From an uncultured Lachnospiraceae bacterium (lineage in GTDB: Bacteria > Bacillota > Clostridia > Lachnospirales > Lachnospiraceae), in the NCBI GenBank assembly GCA_934376945.1, contig CAKRPI010000077.1, positions 1 through 10,872 of the forward strand: 10,872 nucleotides of DNA. Reading direction: 5' to 3'. Under the pieces are notes generated by a model. The model was not told the origin of the DNA. It did not search any database and was given only the letters and a program-made list of their open reading frames with translations. The stretch's first letter is position 1. Every line of letters starts with the position of its first letter. Positions 2,770 to 7,299 of this stretch are shown here, piece by piece. Both the position numbers and the translations under genes were made by a program.

Positions 2770-4329
2770 TTGAATATTTTACAGAAAATAGGTGAATATG
2801 CCAAAGAGGTGCCGGATCGTGTTGCGGTTGCATGCGGATCGGAAACACTGACCTACCGGGAACTCTGGGATTATTCGGATACACTTGCAGGGTGGCTGAA
2901 AGAGAATGCAGGGAATGAGAAAGAGCCGATTGCAGTATATGGCCATAAAAATCCGTGGATGCTGGTGTGCTTCCTGGCCTGTGTGAAATCAGGACATGGA
3001 TACTGTCCGATTGATATTTCTGTGCCGGATGCGAGAACAGCGATGATTCTGCAGGCACTTCCGGATGGACCGGTGCTGACGACAGAAGAAATGCAGGTGG
3101 ATGCCGGAACAAAGCGTGTCCTGCTGCAGGACGAGATCCGAAAACTGGCAAAGGCAAAGAAAGCTGAGTTCGAAACAGAAAAAACAGTTCCGGAAGACTG
3201 GGTAAGCGGAAATGATACCTGGTATATTATTTTTACATCCGGCAGCACCGGTACACCGAAGGGAGTGCAGATTTCGGCAAACTGTCTTGAACATTACCTG
3301 GATTGGTCGGTGGGTCTTGGAAATACGCCGAAGGAAAAGGAAGGGGCTGTATTTTTAAATCAGGCACCGTTTTCGTTCGATCTTTCCGTGATGGATCTGT
3401 ATACTTCGCTGGTAAGTGGCGGTACTTTGTTCTGTCTTGAAAAGTCGGTGCAGTCTGATTATAAAAAGCTGATGGAGGCACTGGAAGAATCGCAGACGTG
3501 TGTATGGGTTTCAACGCCATCGTTTGCGGAGGTGTGTCTGTCGGAAAAAGCATTTGGAGAAAAAATGCTGCCGCAGCTGCGGGCATTTCTGTTTTGTGGC
3601 GAGACGCTGGGAAATCGTACGGCTCTTAAGCTGATGGAGCGTTTTCCGAAGGCTGTTGTGATTAATACCTACGGTCCGACAGAGTCTACGGTTGCCGTTA
3701 CGGACGTGACTGTGACAAGAGAACTGGCAGAAACGGTAAATCCACTTCCGGTCGGTGTGGCTAAACCGGGAACGGTGATCGAAATCCGGGATGAAAACGG
3801 AACAAGACTGGAGGATGGAGAAAAGGGCGAGATTATTATTCTGGGAGATACGGTAAGTACCGGTTACTTCTGTCAGGAAGAGCTGACAAGAAAAGCCTTT
3901 TTCACGGAAAACGGAATTAGAGGCTATCATACCGGAGATAAGGGATATCTGCAGGACGGAATGCTGTTTTACTGCGGACGTATTGACCTGCAGATCAAGC
4001 TTCATGGTTACCGTATTGAGCTGGAAGACATTGAAAACAATATCCGGCGTCTGAGTGGAATTGAACATGTGGTGGTACTTCCGAATGAACGCGACGGAAA
4101 AGTAAAAAGTCTGACCGCTTATGTGGTGGAGGAAGTACTTCCGGAGAATGAACGTGAGGAGGCTGCGCGGCTGAAACGTGAGCTTCTGGCTTATGTACCG
4201 GAATATATGGTTCCGAAAAAATTTGCGTTCCTGGAACAGATGCCGATGACGAATAATGGAAAGGCGGATCGGAAACGGCTGAAAACGGAACTGGAAGAAA
4301 AAGCGGTCGGAGCAGGAGGCAGAAGATGA
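2770..4329 (+). CDS. dltA: D-alanine--D-alanyl carrier protein ligase DltA
   Basis: DltA is a cytoplasmic adenylation enzyme that makes D-alanyl-AMP from D-alanine and ATP and transfers the D-alanyl group to the phosphopantetheine thiol of DltC. It is 519 aa, close to the family's usual length of about 500. Motifs in order: ATP loop TSGSTGTPKG (156-165), FCGE with C276, the position of the D-Ala-pocket cysteine of Bacillus DltA, NTYGPTE (299-305), YHTGD (386-390), GYRIELEDIE (from G413) and the C-terminal catalytic lysine in NGKADRK (K498). The start is TTG at 2770: the N-terminus NILQKIGEYAKEVPDR matches the family, and the next in-frame ATG would remove about 60 residues. AGGTGA (2760-2765) and AAAGGA (2752-2757) are the possible ribosome sites. 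First gene of the operon; its stop overlaps the dltB start by 4 nt (ATGA). Confidence 0.97.
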   Translation: MNILQKIGEYAKEVPDRVAVACGSETLTYRELWDYSDTLAGWLKENAGNEKEPIAVYGHKNPWMLVCFLACVKSGHGYCPIDISVPDARTAMILQALPDGPVLTTEEMQVDAGTKRVLLQDEIRKLAKAKKAEFETEKTVPEDWVSGNDTWYIIFTSGSTGTPKGVQISANCLEHYLDWSVGLGNTPKEKEGAVFLNQAPFSFDLSVMDLYTSLVSGGTLFCLEKSVQSDYKKLMEALEESQTCVWVSTPSFAEVCLSEKAFGEKMLPQLRAFLFCGETLGNRTALKLMERFPKAVVINTYGPTESTVAVTDVTVTRELAETVNPLPVGVAKPGTVIEIRDENGTRLEDGEKGEIIILGDTVSTGYFCQEELTRKAFFTENGIRGYHTGDKGYLQDGMLFYCGRIDLQIKLHGYRIELEDIENNIRRLSGIEHVVVLPNERDGKVKSLTAYVVEEVLPENEREEAARLKRELLAYVPEYMVPKKFAFLEQMPMTNNGKADRKRLKTELEEKAVGAGGRR

Positions 4330-5477
4330 GTTACTACGAGGGACTTTCGTTTTTTACCTGCCTGATAGTGGTGCTGCTGATTGCAATGGTAATCGGAATA
4401 CTGGAAAGACCACTGAAATGGTACAGCCTTCTGGTATCGCTTCTGTTTGTGGTATTTGTGTTTGCTGGCAATCCGTCTGGAATTTTGTATTTGCTTCTGT
4501 TTTACGGATGGTCATGCCTGCTGATCCTTGGATATTTTAGAATTCGCGCGAAAAACGGGCGAAAGGCCGGGATTTATCATGCGGCGGTATTGCTTTCTCT
4601 TGTTCCGCTCGTACTGTGTAAGGTGACGCCACTGTTTCAACTGAGTATTTTCGGTTTTGTCGGAATTTCCTATCTGACATTCCGGGTCGTACAGATGATT
4701 GTGGAAATCTATGATGGTGTCATCAAAGAGGTATCGTTTGTAGAGATTACGGCGTTTCTGGCATTTTTTCCGAGCTTTAGTTCCGGGCCGATTGACCGAA
4801 GCCGCAGATTTCTTTCTGATTGGAATCGCGTACTGCCAAGATCAGAGTATATGGAGCTGTGCGGGAAGGGAATCTGGAAGCTGCTGCTTGGCGCAGTCTA
4901 CAAAATGGTGATTGCAGCCGGTGCTTATAAGATTATGGGTTATCTGGAAACCGGAACCGTCTGGTATCACTGGATTGGATACGCTTATGCGTATGGAATG
5001 TACCTGTTTTTTGATTTTGCAGGTTATTCACTGATGGCGGTCGGAAGCTCCTACGTGCTCGGAATTGAGACACCGGACAATTTTAATAAGCCGTTTATCA
5101 GTCGTGATATTCGTGAATTCTGGGATCGCTGGCACATTACACTGTCGCACTGGTTCCGTGATTTTATTTTTACACGTTTTGTCATGTACAGTTCAAAAAA
5201 GAAATGGTTCTCAAGCCGCCTGCAAAGGGCATGTGCGGGATTTTTTGTGGATATGGGAATTATGGGGCTGTGGCATGGAATCACACCGTCGTATATTCTG
5301 TATGGCTTGTATCACGGCGCGTTGCTGGCAGCAACAGAAACGTATCAGAAAAAATCATCTTTTTACAAGAAGAATAGAAATAAAACGTGGTATCAGATTC
5401 TGTCCTGGGCAATTACAATGCAGCTTGTTATGTTTGGGTTCTTCCTGTTTTCAGGGAAGCTGATGGCATTGATCTGA
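4326..5477 (+). CDS. dltB: D-alanyl transfer protein DltB (MBOAT family)
   Basis: DltB is a polytopic membrane O-acyltransferase that accepts D-alanine from DltC and moves it to the outer face for teichoic acid esterification. It is 383 aa and highly hydrophobic. MBOAT signatures are visible: FFPSFSSGPIDRSRRF (from F147), FWDRWHITLSHWFRDF with H270, and MGLWHGITPSYILYGLYHG with the invariant His H317. The 47-residue spacing of these two histidines equals that of H289/H336 in Streptococcus thermophilus DltB. The ATG at 4326 overlaps the dltA stop, indicating translational coupling. The stop codon lies in a small hairpin, and a 118-nt gene-free, A-rich spacer follows, unusual in an otherwise tightly packed operon. 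Confidence 0.97.
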   Translation: MSYYEGLSFFTCLIVVLLIAMVIGILERPLKWYSLLVSLLFVVFVFAGNPSGILYLLLFYGWSCLLILGYFRIRAKNGRKAGIYHAAVLLSLVPLVLCKVTPLFQLSIFGFVGISYLTFRVVQMIVEIYDGVIKEVSFVEITAFLAFFPSFSSGPIDRSRRFLSDWNRVLPRSEYMELCGKGIWKLLLGAVYKMVIAAGAYKIMGYLETGTVWYHWIGYAYAYGMYLFFDFAGYSLMAVGSSYVLGIETPDNFNKPFISRDIREFWDRWHITLSHWFRDFIFTRFVMYSSKKKWFSSRLQRACAGFFVDMGIMGLWHGITPSYILYGLYHGALLAATETYQKKSSFYKKNRNKTWYQILSWAITMQLVMFGFFLFSGKLMALI

Positions 5478-5491
5478 CATCTGCGGATCAA
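5469..5491 (+). other. hairpin across the dltB stop codon
   Basis: TTGATC (5469-5474) and GATCAA (5486-5491) form an inverted repeat that extends inward by a T-G wobble and a G-C pair, leaving a 7-nt loop. The dltB TGA (5475-5477) is in it. No T-tract follows, so it is not a typical terminator; it could protect the 3' end of a processed dltAB message. That role is inference. Confidence 0.45.
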
Positions 5492-5590
5492 TAATAGAAA
5501 AGAATCGATAATAGAAAGAAACAATAAGAACACAATCAAAAATAATCAAAAACAATTAAAATAATCAAAAACAATTAAAACAATCAGAAA
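5491..5590 (+). repeat. A-rich short tandem repeats between dltB and dltC
   Basis: The spacer is almost free of C and G and built from degenerate units of 9-10 nt of the type (C/T)AAT(C/T)AAAAA. Its core is a perfect 19-bp tandem duplication, ATAATCAAAAACAATTAAA at 5542-5560 and 5561-5579, with partial copies on either side. Further left, ATAATAGAAA occurs twice. It carries no convincing promoter or ORF and would be a largely unstructured RNA segment ahead of the dltC ribosome site. Confidence 0.8.
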
Positions 5591-5616
5591 GAAGATTGCG
5601 AAAGGAGTACATGATT

Positions 5617-5847
5617 ATGGAAAATGAAGTACTGGATTTACTGGCGGAGATTTGTGAGGATGATGTAGTAAAGGATGATCTGCAGACGGAGTTGTTTGAA
5701 TCAGGCCTGATGGATTCTCTTGGATTTGCAGAGTTTCTGGTAGAGCTGGAAGACCAGTGCGGTGTTGTGATCTCTCCGTCGGAAGTGGAAAGAGAAGATA
5801 TTAATACACCGGAAAAGATCCTGGCGCTGGTAGAAGCAAGGAGATAA
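5617..5847 (+). CDS. dltC: D-alanyl carrier protein DltC
   Basis: DltC is the small acyl-carrier protein that holds D-alanine as a thioester on 4'-phosphopantetheine and delivers it from DltA to DltB. I start it at ATG 5617, because AAAGGAG (5601-5607) is 9 nt upstream; ATG 5611 (3 nt away) and TTG 5596 lie too close to or upstream of that site. This gives 76 aa, near the usual 78. The attachment serine is S34 in LMDSLGF, followed by the typical helix AEFLVELEDQCGVVISPSEVEREDINTPEKI. It is acidic, as expected for a carrier protein. A strong ribosome site of its own, after the A-rich spacer, suggests independent high translation; dltD follows 4 nt after the stop. Confidence 0.95.
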   Translation: MENEVLDLLAEICEDDVVKDDLQTELFESGLMDSLGFAEFLVELEDQCGVVISPSEVEREDINTPEKILALVEARR

Positions 5848-5851
5848 GACT

Positions 5852-7030
5852 GTGAAACGAATGAGAGCTTTTTTTCTGGCGCTTCTGCTGTTTGTGATAA
5901 CTGTCGTGGGCTGTCATTTTTATATTTCACGGCAGGTAGAGCTGGACAGTGCGGCGCTTGGAACTTTGCCAAGTGAGGAAAAAGGAAAACTTCGTACGGC
6001 ACTTGTTAATAATATCGATGAAAATGGATATCCGATATTTGGATCATCCGAGTTTATGCATGGGTCTGATACATCGTATCATCCGGCTCAGGTTTTTTCG
6101 GACAGTGATTTTCATCCTATGCTGATCGGAGCCGGTTATTATCAAAGCCTCAGCCATGCGATAACACTGGCATCTATCGCAGAGGGAATGACAGTAAAGA
6201 AAGCGGCACTGATTGTTTCGCCGCAGTGGTTCCGTAAGACGGGCGTTGTTGATCAGGCGTATGCATCCCGTTTTTCAGAAACGCATTATGCAGCGGCGAT
6301 GGCAAACGAAAACCTGAGTGATGAGGTGAAGCAATATATTTCAGATCGTACACAAACGCTTCTTAATGTGGATGAAAAGACGCAGAAACGGGTAACGATG
6401 TATGACGCTGTCCTGTGGAAAAAAGATGCAGATCTGATGGAAACGCTTCGCGAGGAGACATGGTCGGCATTTCTGAATGAAAAAGAATTGTTTGAGACAA
6501 TGCTGCTTGGCAGATCGAAAAAGCTGCAGGAGGCAGAACAAAAAGAGACAGATGCTTTGGAACAGGGTGAAGAACCGGATTGGACTGCGCTGCTGCAGGA
6601 AGCGGAAATGGCTGGTGAAAGCGAGAATCAGAATCAGTTTTATATCGATGAAGATGCGTATAAACGGCTGGAACCACATCTTGCAAAGAAAAAAGGAATG
6701 AACAGCGATGCTCAAAAAGGGTATCAGAGCGGGCCGGAGTTCGATGACCTTCGATGCTTTTTGCAGACGTGTAAGGATCTGGGGATAGAGCCGATGCTGG
6801 TGATCGTTCCGGTAAATGGTTATTATTACGATTATACCGGTTTCCCTAAGGAGGCACGGGAAAAGTATTATGAGAAGATCCGTGGAATTGCAGAAGAATA
6901 CGGTGCAAAAACAGCCGACTTCTCCGATCAGGAGTATACAAAGTACTTCTTTGAAGACCGCGTGCATCTTGGCAAGAAAGGATGGGTAATGGTAGATGAA
7001 AGTCTTTATGAATTTTATAAAGAAGCTTGA
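5852..7030 (+). CDS. dltD: D-alanyl-lipoteichoic acid transfer protein DltD
   Basis: DltD is a membrane-anchored extracytoplasmic enzyme of the SGNH/GDSL fold needed to place D-alanine on teichoic acid. It is 392 aa, the usual length. The N-terminus has one hydrophobic anchor (about residues 5-20), with the rest outside. The catalytic serine motif is FGSSEF (probably S66, by alignment with GDSL), and the Asp-His pair is in FEDRVHLG (D369 and H372), three residues apart as in other SGNH enzymes. The start is GTG 5852, 8 nt after AAGGAG (5838-5843); the ATG at 5861 is too far from that site. A charged, Glu/Lys-rich stretch at about 205-285 separates the two catalytic halves. Its 3' end overlaps the following small gene. 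Confidence 0.96.
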   Translation: MKRMRAFFLALLLFVITVVGCHFYISRQVELDSAALGTLPSEEKGKLRTALVNNIDENGYPIFGSSEFMHGSDTSYHPAQVFSDSDFHPMLIGAGYYQSLSHAITLASIAEGMTVKKAALIVSPQWFRKTGVVDQAYASRFSETHYAAAMANENLSDEVKQYISDRTQTLLNVDEKTQKRVTMYDAVLWKKDADLMETLREETWSAFLNEKELFETMLLGRSKKLQEAEQKETDALEQGEEPDWTALLQEAEMAGESENQNQFYIDEDAYKRLEPHLAKKKGMNSDAQKGYQSGPEFDDLRCFLQTCKDLGIEPMLVIVPVNGYYYDYTGFPKEAREKYYEKIRGIAEEYGAKTADFSDQEYTKYFFEDRVHLGKKGWVMVDESLYEFYKEA

Positions 7031-7157
7031 CAGTCATCCGAAGCTTCAGTTTGCATTGCAGACACTGGGCTTTTATGTATTGATGATGATCCTGTTTCTT
7101 TACTTTATGACAGCCAATCTCTCAACTGCACCCAAATTTGTATATTCACAGTTTTGA
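6996..7157 (+). CDS. dltX: DltX-like small membrane protein at the end of the dlt operon
   Basis: This 53-residue frame is shorter than common ORF cut-offs. It runs from ATG 6996, directly after an in-frame TAG (6993-6995), to TGA 7155-7157, overlapping dltD by 35 nt. It has a short basic N-terminus, SHPKLQFALQTLGFY, one membrane segment (about 20-39, rich in L, M, F and Y) and the C-terminal FVYSQF with Y50. This is the layout of DltX: about 50 residues, one helix, and a terminal F-x-Y-x-x-F motif whose tyrosine is reported to carry D-alanine between DltB and DltD. The ribosome site is weak (AAAGGA 6977-6982, 13 nt away), so coupling to dltD is likely. ATG 7008 is an alternative start (49 aa). 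In Bacillus and Streptococcus dltX precedes dltA; here it is last. Confidence 0.78.
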   Translation: MKVFMNFIKKLDSHPKLQFALQTLGFYVLMMILFLYFMTANLSTAPKFVYSQF

Positions 7158-7202
7158 ACGAGGATTGCACGGCAATGCGTGTAATAAAAGCGAACAGTGA
7201 GA

Positions 7203-7246
7203 AACAAAACGGCCACCGCTCAGGCATGATCGGTGGCCGTTTTGTT
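7203..7246. terminator. bidirectional terminator between the dlt operon and the convergent gene
   Basis: A perfect 16-bp stem: AACAAAACGGCCACCG (7203-7218) and CGGTGGCCGTTTTGTT (7231-7246) around a 12-nt loop. The A-run on the left arm and T-run on the right arm give a U-tract on either strand, so it can end both the dlt operon and the minus-strand methyltransferase gene. Confidence 0.9.
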
Positions 7247-7299
7247 GTCGGGGCAAAGCCCTGTTTTCTATTTGGATATTTTAGCGGATATTTTATTTT

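Follow-up and report, generated by a model that had tools for sequence, protein, structure and literature searches.

A small dltX-like gene begins inside dltD in a Lachnospiraceae dlt operon, an arrangement common in the non-Bacilli groups sampled

Results and discussion

The window (the whole 10,872-nt stretch analysed, from contig CAKRPI010000077.1 of an uncultured Lachnospiraceae bacterium) contains, at the end of dltD, a 53-codon frame that is a real gene and, judging from sequence comparison, almost certainly dltX. The full reading, which we consider very probable, is that it encodes a one-helix D-alanine shuttle of a dltD-tied branch of the family, with start signals made from dltD codons. 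A first-pass annotation had singled out the frame for its 53 residues, single membrane helix, FVYSQF end and 35-nt overlap with dltD; translation (MKVFMNFIKKLDSHPKLQFALQTLGFYVLMMILFLYFMTANLSTAPKFVYSQF) and Kyte–Doolittle analysis confirmed the first three features, and the dltD stop and relative frame the fourth (Table 1).

Table 1 Features of the dlt operon in the window.
Feature	Position	Strand	Description
dltA	2770..4329	+	D-alanine--carrier ligase; TTG start; TIGR01734, 602 bits
dltB	4326..5477	+	MBOAT; without C-terminal FxYxxF; TIGR04091, 493 bits
dltC	5596..5847	+	D-alanyl carrier protein; TIGR01688, NF003464
dltD	5852..7030	+	GTG start; SGNH D-alanyl transferase; TIGR04092, 334 bits
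Shine–Dalgarno-like AAAGGATGG	6977..6985	+	dltD codons Lys-Gly-Trp; 10–13 nt ahead of dltX ATG
dltX/dltD overlap	6996..7030	+	35 nt; dltX in frame +1 relative to the end of dltD (dltD stop 7030)
dltX	6996..7157	+	53-residue single-pass membrane protein; C-terminal FVYSQF; predicted D-alanyl acyl shuttle, Tyr50
terminator-like hairpin	7203..7246	.	16-pair outer stem; 45 nt past dltX stop; next is a convergent methyltransferase gene

The window DltA, DltB, DltC and DltD all scored above the cut-offs of NCBIfam equivalog models, giving the order A-B-C-D-X (X standing for dltX or its product). The small protein has the DltX layout of about 50 residues, a basic N-terminus, a single helix and a short outer tail: its one hydrophobic stretch spans residues 19–37 (best 19-residue Kyte–Doolittle mean 1.96), and four lysines or arginines ahead of this helix against one behind it fit an N-in/C-out orientation. 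It is positioned after dltD and not directly upstream of dltA, the latter being a usual, not strictly defining, trait of DltX, and no motif-bearing frame of at least 25 residues was found upstream of the window dltA, back to the preceding gene. A strong terminator-like hairpin follows (−33.4 kcal/mol for the fold of 7196–7256, z −5.9), which apparently makes dltX the final cistron of the operon. GSSEF and DRVHLGKKGW blocks, whose catalytic roles we presume from the family, are both found in the window DltD. A gap of 118 nt separates dltB and dltC (5478–5595) and is longer in some relatives (e.g. L001, L004).

Selection on the overlapping frame

Codon-level selection was assessed on five loci (the window and four close ones; 10 pairs pooled), using the 41 codons outside the overlap. 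These codons are under strong purifying selection (pS 0.67, pN 0.08, dN/dS ~0.05), compared with dN/dS values of 1.9 and 3.1 for the other two frames across dltX. Within the overlap, synonymous change is suppressed (pS 0.25 vs 0.67 in the non-overlapping codons), the pattern expected of bases that code for two constrained proteins. Loss of the frame in relatives, which the first-pass annotation had named as a sign against the gene, was looked for and not found, the frame being conserved both by this ratio and in the motif-blind survey described below. The shortness of the frame and its Pfam score below the cut-off would suit a chance open frame overlapping dltD, but that explanation is already refuted by the codon-level selection; the terminator-like hairpin 3' of the frame and the conservation of such frames at non-Bacilli but not Bacilli-type dltD ends also argue against it, and we regard it as vanishingly improbable.

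Relationship to characterised DltX

The first-pass annotation had proposed a comparison with the DltX family profile. The window protein aligned over nearly the full length of Pfam DltX (PF12459; profile positions 2–43 of 43, E 0.0087), and its 16.0 bits fall below the curated cut-off of 25 bits, because of which a dltX of this kind is easily missed. An alignment of 47 members (A1), whose rows were picked by motif, so that its invariant tyrosine is partly a matter of construction, gave 18 members matching Pfam DltX at E ≤1, with a best E of 8.2e-5. All of 14 Bacilli DltX used as a control matched Pfam DltX, the set itself having been collected with that model. NCBIfam returned no DltX match for the window protein or any of the 47 A1 members; since none of the 14 Bacilli DltX was matched as DltX there either, this silence is uninformative in both directions, and the absent match was dropped as a mark of a hidden gene.

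Profile–profile comparison supports the DltX identity made in the first-pass annotation. With hhalign, A1 against the Bacilli DltX gave 96.5%, and 93.2% once the last six columns carrying the motif had been removed, compared with 1.6–17.8% for control helices from DltD and DltB, which indicates homology to the characterised DltX branch beyond the terminal motif. The tails of MBOAT proteins with a fused shuttle also compared well with A1 (89%, profile–profile). A search of a protein database with the A1 profile recovered 162 relatives; among the best 120 of these, none carried a Pfam domain or the name DltX, and the few that are named are hypothetical proteins. A sequence search of the PDB yielded nothing useful for the window protein or for the A2 profile.

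The window protein thus resembles the DltX of Bacillus, Staphylococcus and Streptococcus dltXABCD operons (PF12459, formerly DUF3687) in its one helix, its terminal FxYxxF and its place in a dlt operon. It differs from Bacilli DltX in following and overlapping dltD, whereas the Bacilli gene precedes dltA, and in its tail, which reads APKFVYSQF where Bacilli tails are mostly FIYN[ED]F.

Small membrane proteins at dltD ends

A survey blind to the motif was made of dltD genes with 400 nt of downstream sequence, in which a membrane ORF was sought that starts between −65 and +5 of the dltD stop. Such an ORF was found at 112 of 135 non-Bacilli dltD and, by the same scan, at none of 29 Bacilli-type dltD. 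Tails of the form [FY]xYxx[FY] end 111 of these ORFs and PxYxxF the remaining one, the tyrosine being kept in 112/112. The 23 non-Bacilli genes without a match comprise nine whose X starts elsewhere or lies outside the start or hydropathy limits, seven of the Coriobacteriia PxYxx[FY] type, three lone extra dltD copies, two with X before D and two dltD apart from the operon. A DltX at the end of dltD is the common arrangement in the non-Bacilli groups sampled and not a local oddity.

Family and class samples were chosen independently of DltB, some of them sharing genomes. In the family of the Lachnospiraceae MAG G001, 11 of 250 genomes carry 12 dltD, and X follows D in all 12; the A-B-C-D-X order given in the first-pass annotation stands, and it is not an unusual one. 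X likewise follows D in 10/10 cases in the class of Blautia parvula (G004; dltD in 10/245 genomes). The family of Clostridium oryzae (G006; 22/146 genomes, 28 dltD) has 23 cases of X after D, two of X before D and three lone dltD copies; in three genomes of this family (L209, L219, L198), a lone second dltD, without X, lies near a dltD on the opposite strand. In the family of G012, 18 of 80 genomes carry 19 dltD, with X after D in 14, one at a contig end and four of Bacilli type; the last four, on contigs of 3–24 kb and with X before A visible in two, are probably contamination. The class of Anaerovibrio (G017) has dltD in one genome of 120, the seed itself.

The class of an Atopobiaceae genome (G016; 18/119 genomes, 22 dltD) is more varied: X follows D in 14 cases, one second dltD is followed by a PxYxxF-type ORF, and seven dltD, in five genomes, have a PxYxx[FY] ORF between dltC and dltD in the dlt locus. 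In these five genomes (L257–L261), the intervening ORF has one helix, with the first F of the motif replaced by P and the tyrosine kept. The A2 profile did not match the five Coriobacteriia PxYxx[FY] ORFs or the X that precedes dltD in G547; the X of L060 reached only 17 bits. All of these were assigned by position, helix and tail alone. The X profile also missed the X of L144 and L147, both recovered by motif, and a regular-expression match after dltD in L135 was rejected as a false positive.

The statement in the first-pass annotation that X comes first in the Bacillus and Streptococcus operons agrees with the Bacilli sample (class of G010; dltD in 31/200 genomes), where X lies immediately upstream of dltA in 28 of the 31 dltD-bearing genomes. 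These 28 include G113 (L152), with its carrier gene at the front in the order C-X-A-B-D, and G142, which has two sets. In the other three, X follows D (Gemella bergeri) or only fragments of dltD are present (two genomes).

A scan for DltB identified 73 Dlt-type loci among 80, of which 65 have dltD to its stop followed by X; three lack dltD on the locus, in three the contig breaks off within dltD, and two (L019 and L057) have no X visible, their sequences ending 153 and 105 nt past dltD. Exactly one strong X, after dltD, was found in each of the 17 dlt-bearing genomes behind related loci (17/17), a test of second copies and not of presence, as the X sequences in these genomes are rows of the query alignment. 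In the D-first operons of other Clostridia (D-X-A-B-C), X still lies behind D. The orders ABCDX, DXABC, BCDXA and XABCD are circular permutations of one another; the proposal that all orders are permutations of A-B-C-D-X fails, as A-B-C-X-D, X-D-A-B-C and C-X-A-B-D also occur. In L018 and L060, an A-B-C-X operon is accompanied by a single dltD found on another contig (L215/L220 and L216/L221); these are metagenome assemblies, in which chimeras are possible.

Predicted start signals within dltD

The putative ribosome-binding site, AAAGGATGG, lies within the dltD codons CTT GGC AAG AAA GGA TGG, after the histidine of the catalytic block (codon 6965–6967), and its spacing to the dltX ATG is long. 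The start codon and ribosome-binding site of dltX would thus be built from dltD codons past this histidine. Among 100 dltD genes followed by X (D-X), 73 have the start codon that opens X exactly 10 nt past the Gly-Trp codons (61 ATG, 12 GTG), compared with 2 of 26 X-first (Bacilli) dltD with a start codon at this +10 position. The glycine codon is GGA in 60/100 D-X genes (background 34%) against 4/26 X-first genes (background 30%). Neither the start-codon nor the GGA counts are independent, because the sequences are related and the X-first arrangement arose about once in the set.

The Gly-Trp codons are SD-like in themselves, and strong selection for the embedded site was only weakly borne out, the shift under synonymous shuffling being small. 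Across 90 loci, mean duplex energy was −7.3 kcal/mol vs −6.9 in shuffled sequences (z −0.47; 20% at p ≤0.1), with a downstream ATG wrongly taken as the start in a few loci (e.g. L021, L029, L030). For the 73 loci with a +10 start, the values were −8.0 and −7.5 kcal/mol (z −0.64), 54 of them being stronger than their own shuffle mean and 21 reaching p ≤0.1. The embedded site is therefore well placed, and the shuffles are weak evidence of selection beyond the protein sequence.

The linkage of D and X and the start signals inside dltD fit a coupling of dltX translation to that of dltD, as suggested in the first-pass annotation. As these signals are made of dltD codons, X would be expected where dltD has just been translated. 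Alternatively, the gene may be DltX with its translation not tied to dltD, the overlap reflecting gene packing and the SD-like site arising incidentally from the conserved Gly-Trp codons. The weak effect of synonymous shuffling is in line with this second explanation, as is the likely X start in Coriobacteriia, which often lies 1–3 nt past the dltD stop and not within dltD. It is harder to reconcile with the GGA enrichment of D-X dltD, missing from X-first dltD, with an X start fixed relative to the Gly-Trp codons, with a D-X linkage that persists when D moves to the front, and with accessory modules that contain B, D and X only (see below). We consider independent translation possible but doubtful, and favour coupling.

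Proposed role in D-alanine transfer

According to a published study, DltB transfers D-alanine from DltC to the tyrosine of DltX, from which it passes to the serine of DltD (PMC12148441). By analogy with this mechanism in other species, the tyrosine of the window FVYSQF would receive D-alanine from DltC via DltB and pass it on to the DltD catalytic serine. No shuttle tail was found in 155 DltB frames, nor the motif in 133 distinct DltB tails, whereas all 8 distant MBOAT frames (7 loci) end in [FY]xYxxF, 7 of them in FxYxxF. DltB, without a shuttle tail of its own, therefore needs X. In fused proteins such as PatA, a C-terminal helix likewise ends in [FY]xYxxF; unlike these, the window shuttle is a separate gene, and its donor is a carrier protein where that of PatA-type proteins is acyl-CoA (PMC12148441).

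Alternatively, the gene product could be a regulatory or stabilising component of the DltB–DltD complex, a small membrane protein that does not itself carry D-alanine. The possibility that the helices of DltD and DltX have a regulatory function is raised in PMC11035591, and no biochemistry was found for the dltD-linked branch of X. A regulator of this kind is nevertheless very unlikely, given the tyrosine kept in every motif-blind ORF and in the five divergent Coriobacteriia ORFs with P for the first F, the same tail fused to distant MBOATs, and the acylation of the PatA tyrosine described in PMC12148441. The predicted role thus remains that of a shuttle, and the window gene would be a member of a DltX branch that is common outside Bacilli and tied to the dltD 3' end.

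Implications for annotated dlt operons

In earlier publications, X is mostly immediately upstream of dltA (Kamar 2017; PMC5541007) or upstream of dltA with two exceptions (Reichmann 2013; PMC3783018). The C. difficile operon is described as dltDABC, with dltX absent from the main text (PMC10642750); the D-first operons found in other Clostridia have X between D and A. A dltD-linked DltX appeared in no title or passage matched by a literature search, which covered little of the subscription literature, where an earlier mention is possible. If our reading is correct, four-gene operons reported outside Bacilli (e.g. dltDABC) would be five-gene operons. Since DltX is the step that takes D-alanine across the membrane, an operon whose annotation omits it can be neither understood nor tested properly. 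Annotators gain a place to look, the dltD end, together with a profile, and the arrangement would offer a clear case of start signals provided to a partner gene by the end of the gene before it.

Accessory sets and evolution

Four genomes carry, beside a full operon, an additional set (B-D-X or X-D-B) that has neither A nor C on the stretch read (L217 in G632, L211 in G518, L150 in G142 and L207 in G644). The make-up of these sets suggests an association of X with membrane transfer; they may rely on borrowed loaded DltC or on a different donor. On balance, we lean towards a wider picture of a separate, largely unannotated DltX branch outside Bacilli, bound to dltD and with its start signals built from catalytic-block codons of DltD, with X in nearly every dlt operon and a B-D-X module able to travel without A and C.

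In a DltD tree, 32 rows labelled X-first (including G113, and L157 and L158, which were labelled by kinship as X is not on the contig) are separated from the rest by a branch with an SH-aLRT value of 100. A DltB tree rooted on the fused MBOATs places X-first and X-after-D as sisters. In both trees, Gemella and Atopobacter nest among the X-after-D sequences, a placement suggestive of transfer. In L150 (G142:C9:22000-38000), positions 4722–12023 hold a Gemella-like B-D-X set in tandem with, and directly followed by, a typical X-A-B-C-D operon.
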